NCBI GenBank assembly: GCA_002840435.1
Contig: PHAT01000005.1
Coordinates: 348,460-412,459 of the forward strand
Length of the DNA: 64,000 bases
Source: Deltaproteobacteria bacterium HGW-Deltaproteobacteria-6
GTDB lineage: Bacteria > Desulfobacterota > Syntrophia > Syntrophales > Smithellaceae
Direction of reading: 5' to 3'
Part shown: one piece after another, positions 23,187 through 29,638 of the stretch
Numbering within the stretch: the first letter of the stretch is position 1
How the letters are laid out: the number at the start of each line of letters is the position of its first letter
Position numbers and translations under genes: made by a program
The notes under the pieces: model-generated
Databases searched by the model: none
What the model saw: the letters and a program-made list of their open reading frames with translations, nothing else
What the model was told of the DNA's origin: nothing

Positions 23187-23643
23187 TTTTTCTCCTTTTA
23201 CTAATCTTGCTCATTGAATTCAGTCAGTAAAAATGATTGTATGTTCCTCTGAAATAGCTGTCCAGTCTATGTTTCCTCACGATTAACTGCTTTCAGGACT
23301 TCTTCCTTTTACTTTATTATGATCACTTCGGCAATTTAATTTGTACGGTCGTCCTGCTCTTTTGAAAAAGTTCGTATGGCGCATCTTGCTGAACATTCTC
23401 TTTTCCAAAAGCTCATAGTAGCACCCATGGGAAATTTTTTTTATGAGTTTTGAGCAACACAACCCGCTCGAAAAATTTTGCTTAAAAATTATTTTACTTT
23501 TTTTAGAATTATTTTCATTTTTCCAGCTAAAATTGAAAATAAATGTTGACAAATTTTTCTGCTTGCGTAAATTCAAAAACTATAAATCTGTTTATTGGTG
23601 ATTACTTTTTTTAAACAGAAGAAAGATTTTGGAGGGAGCATCA
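23187..23643. other. Intergenic leader region before kamA
   Basis: About 450 bp, very AT-rich. TTGACA occurs near 23.54 kb, but no strong -10 stands at the right spacing. A weak open frame on the minus strand has no ribosome site and biased composition; I do not take it as a gene. GGAGGG at 23632-23637 is the ribosome site of kamA. Confidence 0.5.
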
Positions 23644-24954
23644 ATGGAAAACGAGACGCTGTTTAATGAGGAGGCCGAACCTCCCGGTACCACAGCTGGT
23701 CTTGTTGTGGCTCAAAACGAAACAACGAATTTCTTTTCGTTGTCCACTAACAATCAGCAACCCTCCCTGGTAAAATCAAAGCCAGAGCGCCTTTATTTTC
23801 CCTTTAAAGATTCTCCCCGTTCACGAGCCTTTCGCAAAAAACATTATCCTGACATCAGCCGTATCGAATGGTTTGACTGGCGCTGGCAATTTCAAAACGC
23901 CATTCGCGATGTCCAGGCACTGGATGCCATCATTCATTTGTCCGACAATGAACGCCAGGCCATGATGCACCCCTCAGGAGATTTACCTGTAGCCGTTACC
24001 CCTTATTATGCCAGTTTGATTTCCACACAGGACCCGTCCTCACCGCTTCGTCGTTCCGTCGTTCCGGTGGTTGATGAATGTCTGCATACGAAGGGCGAAG
24101 AAGAAGATCCTCTTTGCGAAGACGCCGACTCCCCGGTTCCCGGCATCGTGCATCGCTACCCCGACCGCGTCCTGTTTCTGGTTACCGACATTTGCGCGAC
24201 GTATTGCCGTTACTGCACCCGTTCCCGCATTTTTGGCCGTCAGCATCAATGTTTTATAGACACGGCTAAATGGGAAAGGGCGCTTTCCTATATCGAATCT
24301 AATCCAAACATCCGTGATGTGCTCCTGTCCGGCGGCGATCCGCTAACCCTGTCCGACGATAAACTCGAGTGGCTCCTGGCAAGACTCAAGGACATTCCCC
24401 ATGTTGAAATGATCCGTATCGGCACCAAAGCGCCCGTCGTCCTGCCGCAACGGATTACGCCCGCTCTGGTTTCCATGTTAAAAAAATACCATCCACTCTG
24501 GATGAGCATCCACATCACACATCCGGATGAGTTGACCCCCGAAATGAGCGCCGCCTGCATCCGCCTGGCTGACGCCGGCATTCCCCTGGGCAGCCAAACC
24601 GTCTTGCTTTCCGGCATTAATGATTCTGTCTCCACGATGACGAGACTGGTGCATGGCCTTTTACAAATTCGCGTTCGCCCCTACTACCTGTATCAATGCG
24701 ATCCGATTCCCGGCTCCTCTCATTTCCGCACACCGATCAGCAAAGGCCTGGAAATCATCCAGGGCTTGCGAGGCCATACGACCGGCTATGCCGTACCGAC
24801 CTATGTCGTCGATGCTCCCGGCGGCGGTGGAAAAATTCCGTTGCTTCCCGAATACGCTATCGGCTGGGATAAAGGCGATTTGATGGTTCGCAATTACGAA
24901 GGCAATATCTTCCGCTACCCGGACAATCACGCTGAATCGAAAGATATCCATTAG
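23644..24954 (+). CDS. kamA: Lysine 2,3-aminomutase family radical-SAM enzyme
   Basis: 436 residues from the ATG after GGAGGG. Radical-SAM Cys184, Cys188 and Cys191 lie in CATYCRYC. PLP is expected on Lys397 (DAPGGGGK). The two Asp residues that bind the substrate epsilon-ammonium in clostridial lysine 2,3-aminomutase (Asp293, Asp330) are both present as Asp353 (YQCD) and Asp390 (VVDAP), with the same 37-residue spacing. This favours L-lysine over glutamate as substrate, giving L-beta-lysine. The ~60-residue N-terminal extension is low in motifs. First gene of a five-gene run ending in an acetyltransferase; it lacks the usual immediate ablB partner. Confidence 0.88.
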   Translation: MENETLFNEEAEPPGTTAGLVVAQNETTNFFSLSTNNQQPSLVKSKPERLYFPFKDSPRSRAFRKKHYPDISRIEWFDWRWQFQNAIRDVQALDAIIHLSDNERQAMMHPSGDLPVAVTPYYASLISTQDPSSPLRRSVVPVVDECLHTKGEEEDPLCEDADSPVPGIVHRYPDRVLFLVTDICATYCRYCTRSRIFGRQHQCFIDTAKWERALSYIESNPNIRDVLLSGGDPLTLSDDKLEWLLARLKDIPHVEMIRIGTKAPVVLPQRITPALVSMLKKYHPLWMSIHITHPDELTPEMSAACIRLADAGIPLGSQTVLLSGINDSVSTMTRLVHGLLQIRVRPYYLYQCDPIPGSSHFRTPISKGLEIIQGLRGHTTGYAVPTYVVDAPGGGGKIPLLPEYAIGWDKGDLMVRNYEGNIFRYPDNHAESKDIH

Positions 24955-24968
24955 GATCGTGAAAACAA

Positions 24969-26006
24969 ATGATGTCCGGTAAACCTGACAGCCCAATCAT
25001 CAGCACTCTGCCAAAAATAACCGTCGGCCTGACCTATGACTTGCGAGATGATTACCTGCGAGAAGGTTACTCTCAGGAAGAAACCGCCGAATTCGACAAA
25101 CCCGATACCATTGCAGCTATTGAAGACGTCATTTTGAAAAACGGTCATGCGACTGATCGCATCGGCCATGTTCAGGCACTGACCCGTCGTCTGGCCGCGG
25201 GTGATCGCTGGGATCTTGTTTTCAACATTGCCGAAGGTCTGCACGGCTTTGGCCGTGAGGCGCAGGTTCCCGCGCTGCTGGACGCCTACAAAATTCCCTA
25301 TACCTTCTCCGATCCGCTCGGACAGACTCTGACCCTTCATAAGGGCATGACTAAACATGTCGTACGCGATCTGGGCATTCCCACACCGGACTTTGTCGTT
25401 GTTTCCGATCCGGAGGATATAGACCAGGTTTCCCTTCCTTATCCCCTCTTTGCCAAACCTGTCGCGGAAGGGACAGGCAAAGGTATCACCGCCCTGTCCA
25501 AAATTGATAACGTCGAAGATCTGCGCAATATCTGCACAAACCTTCTCAACACTTTTCATCAGCCCGTGTTGGTAGAAACTTATCTATCCGGACGGGAATT
25601 CACTGTCGGGATTGTCGGCACAGGAAAGGACGCCCGCACCCTCGGCGCCATGGAGGTCATCCTCAACCCGGACGCTGAGCAGCATGCATACTCCTATGAC
25701 AATAAGGAACATTATGAAAATCTTGTACGATACGCCGCAGTCGATGACGCAGAAGCCAGACATGCCATGGAGATATCTCTTGCCGCCTGGCGCGGACTCG
25801 GTTTGGCAGACGGGGGACGCATCGACCTGCGCTCTGATACTCGAGGTATTCCGCACTTTATCGAAGTAAATTCACTGGCCGGCTTGAATCCCATCCGTTC
25901 GGATCTGCCTATTCTCTGCCGCCTTATGGGGATATCTTATCATCAACTCATCACCGACATCCTGAATTCCGCCTTAAAGCGTGCCGGAATGCTAAGAATA
26001 TGTTAA
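24969..26006 (+). CDS. D-Ala-D-Ala-ligase-like ATP-grasp enzyme 1
   Basis: 345 residues. ATP-grasp features: LFAKPVAEGTGKGI (nucleotide loop), VLVETYLSGREFTVGI and FIEVNSLAGLNP (metal-binding Glu and Asn). N-terminal VGLTYDLRDDYLREGYS and VFNIAEGLHG correspond to the ligase N-domain. Expected to activate a carboxylate as acyl phosphate and join it to an amine. It follows kamA by 14 nt and precedes a second, diverged ligase, so it probably uses beta-lysine or a derivative rather than D-Ala (inference). A true cell-wall Ddl would normally sit among mur genes. Confidence 0.8.
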   Translation: MMSGKPDSPIISTLPKITVGLTYDLRDDYLREGYSQEETAEFDKPDTIAAIEDVILKNGHATDRIGHVQALTRRLAAGDRWDLVFNIAEGLHGFGREAQVPALLDAYKIPYTFSDPLGQTLTLHKGMTKHVVRDLGIPTPDFVVVSDPEDIDQVSLPYPLFAKPVAEGTGKGITALSKIDNVEDLRNICTNLLNTFHQPVLVETYLSGREFTVGIVGTGKDARTLGAMEVILNPDAEQHAYSYDNKEHYENLVRYAAVDDAEARHAMEISLAAWRGLGLADGGRIDLRSDTRGIPHFIEVNSLAGLNPIRSDLPILCRLMGISYHQLITDILNSALKRAGMLRIC

Positions 26007-26043
26007 GTCGAATCTCAAAATCCTGAGAGCGGAAAATTATTCC

Positions 26044-27030
26044 ATGAAAAAAATTGTCATTTTGCATACGGATGTGGCCCCCGATGCGGGTATTGATGAA
26101 CAGGATACGATTCTTCAGGCCAAAACCATTGCCGAGGCCATAACATCTCTGGGCTACGAGCCGGTCATGCTGCCCTTTGTGATGGATTTAAATGCAACGA
26201 TTTCCAAACTCCGCGCCCTGCAGCCCTGTGTTGTTTTTAATCTGGTGGAATCCCTTGGCGGAAAAGGCAGCATGGTTTACTTTTCAACAGCCCTGCTGGA
26301 TTTTCTACGCCTTCCCTACACGGGCTGCCGGACGGACGCCCTGTATCTGACATCCAATAAACCCCTCACGAAAAAGTTCCTGCACGCAGAAGGCATTCCC
26401 ACACCTCCCTGGATCACAACTGCCGGCATCGGCACCGGATCGGCTCCCGCCGGCACTTATTTAATGAAGCCCTCCTGGGAAGATGCATCCGTCGGATTGG
26501 ATGATGATGCTATTATCTTCATGACCGACCAGAATAATATTGTAAGCGCCTTGCGGAATCGGCAGGCAGAAATCGGCAGCGACTGTTTCGCGGAAGCCTA
26601 TATCGAAGGACGGGAATTTAACATCGCCTTACTGGCCACAGATCAGGGGGTTCAAATTCTGCCGGCTTCGGAAATTCTCTTTCAGGATTACCCGCCCGGC
26701 AAACTGAAAATCCTGGATTACCGTGCCAAGTGGGTGGAAGATTCTTTCGAATATGACAATACACGGCGGACTCTGTATATCGCTCCTGAGGACGAACCAT
26801 TGACAGGCCGCCTGCGGGATATCGCCCTGCGGTGCTGGAATCTTTTCGGTTTGCGCGGATACGCCCGCGTGGATTTCCGTATCGACCAGAAGGGCAATCC
26901 ATATGTTCTGGAAATCAACGCCAATCCCTGTCTGTCGCCGGACGCGGGATTTGCCGCTGCCCTCGATTATGCAGGCATAAAGTATTCCAATGCAATTGAC
27001 GACATCCTTCGGGATGCTTTACAACCATAA
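26044..27030 (+). CDS. D-Ala-D-Ala-ligase-like ATP-grasp enzyme 2
   Basis: 328 residues, related to but clearly diverged from the preceding gene. VVFNLVESLGGKGSM and LPYTGCRTDALYLTSNKPLTKK lie in the N-domain, with YLMKPSWEDASVGL, CFAEAYIEGREFNIAL and YVLEINANPCLSPD in the ATP-grasp core. The metal ligands Glu and Asn in LEINAN are kept. Thirty-seven nt separate it from its neighbour. Two sequential ligases suggest a product built by two amide-forming steps. Confidence 0.8.
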   Translation: MKKIVILHTDVAPDAGIDEQDTILQAKTIAEAITSLGYEPVMLPFVMDLNATISKLRALQPCVVFNLVESLGGKGSMVYFSTALLDFLRLPYTGCRTDALYLTSNKPLTKKFLHAEGIPTPPWITTAGIGTGSAPAGTYLMKPSWEDASVGLDDDAIIFMTDQNNIVSALRNRQAEIGSDCFAEAYIEGREFNIALLATDQGVQILPASEILFQDYPPGKLKILDYRAKWVEDSFEYDNTRRTLYIAPEDEPLTGRLRDIALRCWNLFGLRGYARVDFRIDQKGNPYVLEINANPCLSPDAGFAAALDYAGIKYSNAIDDILRDALQP

Positions 27031-27052
27031 ATGAAGAAAGGGGATTTGTTTT

Positions 27053-27403
27053 GTGTTAAAATCTGTTGTATTGCTTTTGTTTTCTAATCTTTTCATGACA
27101 TTTGCCTGGTATGGCCATTTAAAAAATCTTAACAGCAAACCTTTGTTTCTGGTCATCATAATCAGCTGGGGTATTGCTTTCTTTGAATATGTCTTGCAGG
27201 TACCTGCCAACCGTATCGGATTTGAGTATTACTCTTTAGGTCAGCTTAAGATTATCCAGGAAGTTATTACGATGATCGTTTTTGCCGGTTTCGCCATCCT
27301 TTATATGAAGCAGCCGCTGAAACTGGACTTTCTCTGGGCGGCGTTCTGTATGGTTGGCGCGGTTTACTTCATGTTTCGCGGCGGTATGCCGCAGAATGGA
27401 TGA
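27053..27403 (+). CDS. DUF486 small membrane protein (DMT-like)
   Basis: 116 residues with four hydrophobic segments and the DUF486 pattern FMTFAWYGHLKN, LQVPANRIGFEYYSLGQLKIIQEV and LYMKQPLKLDFLWAA. The family is distantly related to small-multidrug-resistance-type drug/metabolite transporters, mostly uncharacterised. GTG start after AAAGGGG. The stop overlaps the GNAT start by four bases, tying it to the kamA operon. An exporter or importer of the pathway product is a plausible role. Confidence 0.8.
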   Translation: MLKSVVLLLFSNLFMTFAWYGHLKNLNSKPLFLVIIISWGIAFFEYVLQVPANRIGFEYYSLGQLKIIQEVITMIVFAGFAILYMKQPLKLDFLWAAFCMVGAVYFMFRGGMPQNG

Positions 27404-27894
27404 TACGGATGAATCCCATCACCTACCGACAGGAAATTGAACCGTCGGATTTAAGCGCGATTTTGAACATTGTTCAAGGAAGCGGGTTTTTCTCCGCCGA
27501 AGAAGTTGAACTGGCCTGTGAACTGGCCGCCGATCGGCTGGAACAAGGCAGGCAGAGCTCCTATGAGTTTTTATTCGCCGAAGAAAACAGCCAGGTCGTC
27601 GGATATACCTGTTATGGTTTAATACCGGCTACGGCAAGCAGTTATGATCTTTACTGGATTGCAGTTTCTGAACCCCTGCGCGGTCATGGCCTCGGTAAAA
27701 TTCTTCTGCAAAAAACAGAAGATCTCATTCAGAAAACCGGCGGCAGGCAGATATACGCAGAGACAGCTTCCCGCGCTCAATACGGACCAACTCAGCATTT
27801 TTACAAAAGTTGCGGCTACTTTCCCGAGGCGGTTCTTAAGGATTTCTATTCACCCGGCGATAGTAAAATTATTTACTCTAAAGCCCTTAAATAA
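27400..27894 (+). CDS. GNAT-family N-acetyltransferase
   Basis: 164 residues. The acetyl-CoA loop is seen as VSEPLRGHGLGKILLQKTEDLI (compare RxxGxG/A), followed by YAETASRAQYGPTQHFYKSCGY, the usual beta5-alpha4 region. Translationally coupled to DUF486 through ATGA. In archaea and some bacteria beta-lysine made by KamA is acetylated by AblB, also a GNAT protein; this gene occupies a comparable functional slot but lies four genes away, after two ligases. Confidence 0.82.
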   Translation: MIRMNPITYRQEIEPSDLSAILNIVQGSGFFSAEEVELACELAADRLEQGRQSSYEFLFAEENSQVVGYTCYGLIPATASSYDLYWIAVSEPLRGHGLGKILLQKTEDLIQKTGGRQIYAETASRAQYGPTQHFYKSCGYFPEAVLKDFYSPGDSKIIYSKALK

Positions 27895-28023
27895 CAAATA
27901 ATAAGACCAATAATTTGCCCGATATTCGTTTTAAGGCCTTGCATTTTTTCCGATAATTCGCTAGAGCACTGCTGACTTTAAGATCACCAGCTGCATACCT
28001 AAGGAAAAAAGGAGGAATTGCTG

Positions 28024-28644
28024 ATGCGCCTGTTTCCTAAAGAAGAAAATTTCTTTAACTACTTTGAAGAGTTAGCCAATAAAATTGAAGAAGGTGGCCA
28101 ATTCTTTCTGGATATGACCAAGAATCGTGATTATTCTGAAGCAAAAGTGGCACGCCTCAAAGAACTTGAGCATGAAGCCGACATCATTACCCACAAAACT
28201 TATGAAAGAATGCACAAGACTTTTCTGACGCCCATCGACCGTGAGGATATTTACGCCCTGGTCAACAAGATGGACAGCATTATGGACGTCATTGAAGCCA
28301 CCGCCATTCGCATCCACATGTATAAGGTTAAAAAGCCGGATGACGAAATCATCAAGCAGGCGGAAATCCTTTTTCAAGCCATCAAAAAAATAAAAGAAAT
28401 TGTGTATGGCCTGCGCGACATGAAAAACTCCCAGATGATTCTGGACGGCTGCGTGGAAATCAACACCCTGGAAAATGCCGGTGACGTCGTTTTAAGAACC
28501 ATTATCACCAATCTTTTTATCAAGGAACAGGATGCCATCGAACTGATCAAATGGAAAGAAATCTTCGAACGGATCGAAGAGGCGATTGATGTTTGTGAAG
28601 ACGTATCCAACACCGTGGAAGGGATTGTCCTGAAACATGCTTGA
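28024..28644 (+). CDS. DUF47 (PhoU-like) phosphate-transport accessory protein
   Basis: 206 residues, all alpha-helical with PhoU-like repeats: LKELEHEADIITHKTYERMHKTFLTPIDREDIYALVNKMDSIMD and a second, similar set. GGAGG stands 8 nt before the chosen ATG. The end overlaps the phosphate transporter gene by 8 bp, the standard Pit arrangement. Thought to regulate Pit activity; mechanism not settled in the literature I know. Confidence 0.9.
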   Translation: MRLFPKEENFFNYFEELANKIEEGGQFFLDMTKNRDYSEAKVARLKELEHEADIITHKTYERMHKTFLTPIDREDIYALVNKMDSIMDVIEATAIRIHMYKVKKPDDEIIKQAEILFQAIKKIKEIVYGLRDMKNSQMILDGCVEINTLENAGDVVLRTIITNLFIKEQDAIELIKWKEIFERIEEAIDVCEDVSNTVEGIVLKHA

Positions 28645-29638
28645 TTCAATGGCATTTGTCATTTTCCTGGTGATCGTTGCACTTGTTTTCGATTTCATCA
28701 ACGGTTTCCATGACTCTTCTAATTCCATTTCAACAATTGTTTCCACCAGAGTTCTTTCGCCCAAACAAGCCGTCATGTGGGCCGCCTTTTTTAATTTTAT
28801 CGCCGCATTTTTCATCGGCACCGCAGTTGCTCACACCATTGGTAAAGGCATTATCCATATCGACATTATTGACAACCTGCTGATTCTTTCCGCACTGGGC
28901 GGCGCCATTGTCTGGAATCTCATTACGTGGTATTTTGGTTTACCGAGCAGTTCTTCTCACGCTCTGATTGGCGGACTCATCGGCGCAGGCATCGCCAAAG
29001 GCGGTGTCGAGACTCTGGTGTGGTCCGGCATCATCAAAACGACCGCTTTCATTGTCTTGTCACCTGCCATTGGTTTAGTTCTCGGGTTCATATTCATGGT
29101 CTTGCACATGAATCTTAATCGGAATTCCAATATTGCCAGAACAGACAAAATTTACCGAAAATTGCAGCTTGCTTCATCGGCAATTTATTCGCTGGGTCAC
29201 GGCATGAATGATGCGCAAAAGACAATCGGTATCATTGCCATTGTTCTGTATAGTAAAGGCCTGATCGGTTCGAGTTTTAACATTCCCTACTGGATCATTA
29301 TCATGTGCTACTCGGTCATCGCATTGGGAACCATGTTTGGCGGCTGGCGAATTGTGAAAACGATGGGAACTAAAATCACGAAACTTCAACCGATTGGCGG
29401 TTTCAGCGCTGAAGCCGCCGCCGCCTGCGCGATTATCGGTTCATCCATAGCGGGTATTCCGGTCAGTACAACACACACGATAGCGGGAGCCATTGTCGGT
29501 GTCGGTGCGACGAAAAGGCTTTCCGCCGTCCGCTGGGGCGTGGCCGGCAACATCATTTGGGCCTGGGTATTGACAATACCGATTGCCGCCGCCATCTCCG
29601 CCACCCTTTACCTTTCTCTGAAATTTTTTATTTTTTAA
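28637..29638 (+). CDS. pit: PiT-family inorganic phosphate transporter
   Basis: 333-residue polytopic membrane protein with both PiT signature halves: FDFINGFHDSSNSISTIVSTRVLSP near the N-terminus and YSLGHGMNDAQKTIGIIAIVL in the middle. STTHTIAGAIVGVGATKR is the C-terminal repeat. Ten or so hydrophobic segments. Low-affinity, cation-coupled phosphate uptake. Overlaps and presumably is coupled to the DUF47 gene. Confidence 0.93.
   Translation: MLDSMAFVIFLVIVALVFDFINGFHDSSNSISTIVSTRVLSPKQAVMWAAFFNFIAAFFIGTAVAHTIGKGIIHIDIIDNLLILSALGGAIVWNLITWYFGLPSSSSHALIGGLIGAGIAKGGVETLVWSGIIKTTAFIVLSPAIGLVLGFIFMVLHMNLNRNSNIARTDKIYRKLQLASSAIYSLGHGMNDAQKTIGIIAIVLYSKGLIGSSFNIPYWIIIMCYSVIALGTMFGGWRIVKTMGTKITKLQPIGGFSAEAAAACAIIGSSIAGIPVSTTHTIAGAIVGVGATKRLSAVRWGVAGNIIWAWVLTIPIAAAISATLYLSLKFFIF

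Follow-up and report, generated by a model that had tools for sequence, protein, structure and literature searches.

A recurrent module of a KamA-type aminomutase, two ATP-grasp ligases and an acetyltransferase as a candidate route to an acetylated beta-lysine amide

In a stretch of 64,000 nucleotides from Deltaproteobacteria bacterium HGW-Deltaproteobacteria-6 (assembly GCA_002840435.1, contig PHAT01000005.1, positions 348,460 to 412,459), here called the window and lying on contig 5 in a 53-contig genome of 4.09 Mb, we analyzed a run of genes combining a lysine 2,3-aminomutase with two ATP-grasp ligases and a GNAT acetyltransferase. The initial annotation of this DNA had described five closely packed genes, and all five co-directional open reading frames were confirmed on the forward strand, with intergenic gaps of 14, 37, 22 and −4 bp. 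The first (23644..24954) encodes a KamA-type lysine 2,3-aminomutase of 436 residues, a radical S-adenosylmethionine (SAM) and pyridoxal phosphate (PLP) enzyme with an N-terminal EPPG motif and a shortened LAM_C domain, as judged from Pfam and NCBIfam models and alignment with structure 2A5H (Pfam E-values of 5.4e-12 for Radical_SAM and 1.6e-22 for LAM_C). Then follow ligase 1 (ATPg1, 24969..26006, 345 residues), the usual neighbour of KamA, and ligase 2 (ATPg2, 26044..27030, 328 residues), both assigned to the fold of D-Ala-D-Ala ligase (Ddl) using Pfam (Dala_Dala_lig_C, E-values of 2e-25 and 8.7e-20, respectively) and predicted structures. A small membrane protein of the DUF486/DMT_6 family (27053..27403; PF04342, 155.8 bits against a cut-off of 25, E-value 4.7e-46) precedes the GNAT gene (27400..27894; Acetyltransf_1, E-value 7.7e-13), which overlaps its end by 4 bp. 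The five-gene unit is in truth a four-gene module of KamA, ligase 1, ligase 2 and GNAT, a genuine set of biosynthetic genes with a wide distribution.

Using ligase 1 as the only query, tblastn at 1e-3 gave at least 584 stretches of DNA, at least 575 of them being relatives, the best 80 of which are here called the named loci; gene contents were mapped by tblastn and profiles, with some loci being cut by contig ends. The same genomes occur under two numbers in L152/L056, L188/L079 and L185/L082, and the locus counts are therefore not fully independent. The neighbourhood survey for KamA with paired ATP-grasp genes, as had been proposed, showed that the arrangement recurs. In 74 of the 80 named loci KamA precedes ligase 1 in the same orientation, at a distance of 2 to 2076 bp (within 300 bp in 59 of them), and it was present in 68 of the 71 named loci whose upstream DNA extends for 1.5 kb or more, a co-location far beyond chance, while ligase 2 (at least 100 bits) was found in 72/80. 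All four genes were present in 18/18 loci of the window's own family, 15/20 loci of other families of its order (33 of 38 for the order overall), 19/22 loci of the wider phylum and 54/80 named loci. Among order loci short of four genes, L056, L057 and L059 had no GNAT match, L061 was cut by a contig end and L060 was split, the draft genome G057 carrying KamA-ligase 1 (L222) and ligase 2-GNAT (L060) on different contigs; these gene pairs behave as two halves of the module. Gene order varied in L106, L109 and L111 with membership kept, and in the genome of L151 KamA was present and unlinked.

The module is not confined to the order. Orthologues of ligase 2 (E-value <1e-50) were found in 74 of 99 genomes, the source genome included, and within the phylum a ligase 1 match was seen in 108/297 genomes at 1e-40 and in 62/297 at 1e-120 (63 matches). 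In the phylum of the planctomycete genome G385, 21 of 199 genomes had a ligase 1 match at 1e-90, and for 16 of these, seed included, the E-value was under 1e-130. By sequence-record names, the named loci belong to Desulfobacterota, Planctomycetota, Bacteroidota, Acidobacteria, Neomarinimicrobiota and others. One genome (G371) holds two full module copies (L091, L092), and a carrier with a strain name is Desulfatitalea alkaliphila M08but (L128). With regards to DUF486, it was found in 7/18 own-family loci, 0/20 other-family loci of the order and 1/80 named loci, being a dispensable, occasional insertion. A lack of co-location in relatives, which had been put forward as evidence against a unit, was thus found for DUF486, whereas the remaining four genes did not show it.

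Residues 66–427 of KamA align with the solved lysine 2,3-aminomutase 2A5H (E-value 7.4e-137). Both substrate-binding Asp residues were kept, as had been noted initially, and C184, C188, C191, R193, D353, D390 and K397 were identical in 131/131 KamA relatives (127 distinct sequences) scoring at least 450 bits, with lower scores and fragments left out. We take the cysteines to hold the 4Fe-4S cluster, the lysine to bind PLP, and D353 and D390 to bind the epsilon-amine of the substrate lysine; judging from these conserved residues, KamA probably converts L-lysine to beta-lysine. The window KamA scored 358.3 bits with the KamA family model TIGR00238 (cut-off 199.2), and its best NCBIfam model was that of AblA (TIGR03820, 502.2 bits, under the cut-off of 525.4), as was also the case for all seven other module KamAs scanned (472–510 bits, all below 525.4). 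Models for glutamate and arginine aminomutases and EpmB scored it lower than AblA, the former two far below cut-off. In a tree of 36 KamAs, 2A5H fell within the set of module and unlinked KamAs rather than outside it. The source genome has another KamA beside elongation factor P (EF-P) and EpmA, both above cut-off (L198), with a Glu at the position of D353, the first lysine-binding Asp; the EpmB model gave 266.3 bits for the window KamA and 250.9 for this EF-P-linked control, both under the cut-off of 369.3. A role of the module KamA as the EF-P enzyme was rejected, as this other KamA sits with EF-P and EpmA. An [ED]PP[GPS] motif (window 23660–23700) in the variable KamA N-terminus occurred one or more times in 100 of the 131 KamA rows, and some unlinked KamAs have it too.

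The description of the ligases as two diverged Ddl-like enzymes was borne out. AlphaFold models reached a mean predicted local distance difference test score of 94.4 for ligase 1 (61 aligned sequences) and 95.5 for ligase 2 (50 aligned sequences), and by Foldseek and structure alignment of these predicted models both had the Ddl fold over their full length (ligase 1 with DdlB 8evy: Z 32.8, root-mean-square deviation 2.6, 297 aligned; ligase 2 with DdlB 8evz: Z 31.9, 2.8, 289 aligned). Identity to Ddl among the structure alignments listed was at most 29% for ligase 1 and 25% for ligase 2, with best Ddl model scores of 140.3 and 116.9 bits against a cut-off of 243, whereas the genome's own canonical Ddl, encoded separately on contig 3, scored 278.1; the ligases as the genome's Ddl were for that reason rejected. 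In sequence alignment with this Ddl, ligase 1 had Lys-Glu and ligase 2 had Lys-Trp at its loop pair Lys-Tyr, and TGKG and ASVG, respectively, stood where it has SSVG, the Lys-Tyr pair and the serines being what we take to be functional positions. K229 and W230 of ligase 2 were found in 140/140 relatives. At the position where a Ddl serine presumably binds the acceptor carboxylate, Ser was kept in ligase 1 (151/155) and ligase 2 had mostly Ala. Near the N-terminus of ligase 1, E41 was found in 152/152 rows having a letter there and D43 in 151/152, and these two residues may bind a basic substrate. A 74-row tree, rooted for drawing only and with long-branch Ddl and third ATP-grasp rows placed unsurely, kept ligase 1 and ligase 2 rows separate. 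The source genome also has a third, unlinked Ddl-like ATP-grasp gene (L199:4979-6106, about 28% identity to ligase 2) with similar matches in many relatives, and an extra ATP-grasp-like protein precedes ligase 1 in L104 (4634–5557, with arginine decarboxylase) and L115 (2091–3050, with KamA). Proteins having two ligase-1-like domains occur in L098 (4769–6796) and L099 (4718–6745), with no KamA in the locus.

The window GNAT is not AblB, scoring 18.9 bits with TIGR03827 against a cut-off of 205.1, and no AblB match was found in the source genome. A single open frame spans ligase 2 and GNAT in 9/158 loci (L075, L086, L093, L117, L135, L136, L138, L151, L153). A deacetylase-like partner of the GNAT (PF00850, Pfam identity confirmed in three proteins) was seen in 26/80 named loci by profile and 24/80 by tblastn, with the deacetylase in the same frame as GNAT in 17 loci; this deacetylase family includes acetylpolyamine hydrolases. 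In one genome (L079/L188) a GNAT-agmatinase fusion lies inside a KamA module.

As for the surroundings of the module, a sigma-70-like promoter candidate (TTGACA-16-TAAATT, 23546..23573, forward strand) lies 70 bp before kamA by consensus match only, such matches numbering 9 in the region versus 5.8 (standard deviation 2.2) in shuffles. Downstream in the window are a DUF47-PiT phosphate-transporter pair (28018–29638), a diaminopimelate-decarboxylase-like (LysA-like) gene (293.8 bits, cut-off 297.9) and, after it, a protein with an aminoacyl-tRNA editing domain (PF04073, 31195–31677). The DUF47-PiT pair trails the module in 17/18 own-family loci, several loci of the order's other families and 3/80 named loci, and the neighbour clusters DUF47, PiT, Fpg and LysA-like, all cluster names being assigned by eye, were almost confined to the window's order. 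Regulators of the sigma-54 type were near 28 loci, in either orientation, and a TatC-like cluster was found in 6. By tblastn, 14/80 named loci (e.g. L147:6474-7001) encode a CxxCxxCC-type protein (PF03692 confirmed in two) immediately before ligase 1 or in the space that separates it from KamA.

From these genes we infer substrates, an order of steps and a product, and consider the chances about even that the module makes a small intracellular acetylated beta-lysine amide, without use of ribosome or tRNA. KamA would shift the amino group of L-lysine from its alpha position, yielding beta-lysine, ligase 1 would use ATP to form an acyl-phosphate and couple beta-lysine to a second building block, and ligase 2 would append a further block, whereupon the adjacent GNAT would acetylate one amine. 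The GNAT-deacetylase of many relatives could make this capping reversible, or trim it. The role of such a product is most likely that of a basic metabolite kept at hand in the cell and not secreted, in the manner of polyamines or compatible solutes, this being the weakest step of the proposal. The initial annotation had suggested an acetylated beta-lysine dipeptide that is built and exported; an acetylated beta-lysine amide is plausible, but export is not supported, with DUF486 mostly absent and no widespread exporter seen among the recurrent neighbour clusters (158 loci, clusters named by eye), an ABC-transporter-like cluster being near 6/158 loci in either orientation, with MacA/ABC genes in L110 and a MarC gene in L158. 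The suggested salt or osmolyte role likewise found no backing. The window had no Rfam riboswitch match, thus none to Na+ or c-di-AMP riboswitches, and six Rfam matches in 31 other loci (two cobalamin riboswitches in L136 and four tRNAs) included none reading into the module; by record title, carriers came not only from marine and saline settings but also from fen, groundwater, lake and upflow anaerobic sludge blanket sources. The initial annotation had therefore seen the module rightly, with one gene too many, and had over-read export and salt.

The second building block may be hinted at by 27 more distant loci. KamA was present in 10 of them and a pyruvoyl-dependent arginine decarboxylase in another 10, the two never occurring together, and the remaining 7 had neither (ligases 1 and 2 cross-match in this tblastn survey, and ligase counts from it were not used). 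Four of the decarboxylase loci were found blind (L102, L104, L105, L107) and six were fetched as relatives (L204–L207, L211, L212). The decarboxylase lies upstream of ligase 1, mostly directly; in L104 a third ATP-grasp gene intervenes, and in L212 the two are about 630 bp apart. Of these loci, eight of the ten have an agmatinase and five a deoxyhypusine-synthase-like gene. That arginine decarboxylase is swapped in for KamA was considered and dropped, since a strong unlinked KamA (560–577 bits, both Asp kept) was found in all five such genomes tested. All of 15 genomes without adjacent KamA that were searched had some KamA match. The source genome has the mirror arrangement, with KamA linked and an agmatinase-decarboxylase pair on another contig. 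This complementary linkage of KamA and decarboxylase is suggestive, not proof, of a polyamine partner. A product in which beta-lysine is coupled to an amine made from arginine (agmatine, putrescine or a longer polyamine), fed by both KamA and arginine decarboxylase/agmatinase, is accordingly a tentative possibility, with which the GNAT-agmatinase fusion and the acetylpolyamine hydrolases in the deacetylase family would also agree. Polyamine genes are common, however, and their presence in trans therefore says little; moreover, both enzymes are missing from seven of the 27 distant loci, no decarboxylase is seen in the majority of loci, where KamA is linked, and half of the evidence comes from a few families. 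The fullest version, a reversibly acetylated beta-lysine amide with an arginine-derived polyamine as its other part, made by a two-ligase pathway in several phyla and common in one order as a metabolite class not seen before, we regard as doubtful.

Other explanations appear less probable. KamA and GNAT could simply produce the osmolyte N-acetyl-beta-lysine, with the ligases serving another purpose, as pairing of an aminomutase with an acetyltransferase is the arrangement of ablAB (PMC3543383, PMC9337991) and the genome lacks AblB; but this is unlikely, as the GNAT falls far short of the AblB model and shares frames with ligase 2, KamA-ligase 1 pairs occur where no GNAT was found, and no Na+ or c-di-AMP riboswitch was matched. 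Ligases extending peptidoglycan precursors, with beta-lysine as a cross-bridge residue, would suit the Ddl fold and a MurI-like gene (named by eye) 3 kb downstream in L152; with a separate Ddl in the genome and, by eye, no cell-wall gene seen in the clusters of recurrent neighbours, this is the most improbable of the alternatives. Glutathione- and mycothiol-type pathways use ligases and GNAT enzymes, and by this analogy two ligases, a GNAT and the CxxCxxCC proteins of 14 named loci might make a beta-lysine-containing low-molecular-weight thiol, cofactor or metal chelator, a reading of low probability given no pointer to cysteine and a CxxCxxCC gene that is missing in most loci, window included. 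KamA families differ in substrate, and the agmatinase and arginine decarboxylase of some contexts could speak for arginine, ornithine or glutamate in place of lysine; the two lysine-binding Asp residues in 131/131 relatives and the far-below-cut-off scores with the arginine and glutamate models make that quite improbable.

A number of observations weigh against an acetylated beta-lysine amide as the common product. Six of the 80 named loci have no KamA in the locus and eight no ligase 2 match of 100 bits, four of these eight not being due to contig ends, and KamA-ligase 1 without nearby ligase 2 despite room was found in L139, L146, L147 and L158. The ligase pair comes after arginine decarboxylase in ten of the distant loci, a count that came partly from selection, so that ligase 1 may not act on beta-lysine, and L098, L099, L103, L108, L110, L112 and L113 have neither amine enzyme. 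Among the 15 genomes searched that lack an adjacent KamA, the KamA match of G374 is weak (211.8 bits), and those of G157, G120, G302, G208 and G344 reach a middling 343–405 bits and are of uncertain type. The window KamA itself is below the curated AblA cut-off with much of LAM_C missing, and AblA is the best model also for the EF-P-linked KamA (403.7 bits), so that model rank does not separate KamA types. No deacetylase was found in the module in any of the 38 loci of the window's order. Finally, with regards to prevalence in Bacteroidota, the phylum of the Bacteroidales genome G386 had ligase 1 in 1 of 247 genomes, the seed genome alone.

If the proposed acetylated beta-lysine amide is correct, many environmental bacteria, including by record title Syntrophaceae, Desulfobacteraceae and planctomycetes, would share a beta-amino-acid metabolite and two new amide-forming enzymes, and use of lysine 2,3-aminomutase would extend beyond osmolyte synthesis, fermentation and EF-P modification. 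The module could then be a source of ATP-grasp ligases for beta-amino acids, useful in synthesis. Should the partner be a polyamine, amino-acid and polyamine metabolism would join in one small molecule.

Among systems in print, the closest in gene content comes from Pseudomonas syringae pv. phaseolicola, whose Pbo cluster has in pboF-pboG a gene resembling lysine 2,3-aminomutase that adjoins an ATP-grasp gene resembling L-amino-acid ligases (PMC8473136). The pairing of KamA with an ATP-grasp gene is hence not new in itself, and the contexts listed initially for KamA were incomplete. Pbo is likened by gene content alone, and it differs in having one ligase within a cluster of 16 genes with major facilitator superfamily transporters, a dioxygenase and ketosynthase-like genes (PMC8473136). 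KamA with two ATP-grasp genes was not described in the literature searched, which did not cover the ATP-grasp operon survey of Iyer et al. 2009, so that novelty of the two-ligase module is unproven; PMC6150868 names ATP-grasp only within a reference. The AblA/AblB system for N-epsilon-acetyl-beta-lysine, known from ablAB (PMC3543383, PMC9337991), also has a lysine 2,3-aminomutase next to an acetyltransferase, but there the acetyltransferase is AblB, and the module has two ligases in between. EpmB/EpmA share with the module a beta-lysine made by a KamA homologue, and differ in that the genome has a separate cassette of its own for EF-P. Ddl shares the full-length fold and the ATP and Mg residues with both ligases, which differ from it in low identity and replaced loop residues. 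In the AsnO/Ngg system, Ngg has an ATP-grasp domain. The product of this system, the osmolyte N-acetylglutaminylglutamine amide, is likewise a non-ribosomal acetylated dipeptide, for which one protein acetylates and forms the peptide bond (PMC8070244). The single ligase 2-GNAT frames resemble this joining of two activities; the module instead has an aminomutase and a second ligase, no asparagine-synthase-type amidotransferase being noticed among the window's five genes or the neighbour clusters named by eye. The E-64 pathway, finally, uses an ATP-grasp pseudodipeptide ligase to make an amide bond and then condenses the product with an amine, as the module may do, but it is fungal, builds on an epoxysuccinate warhead and employs an amide bond synthetase for the amine step (PMC12568646).

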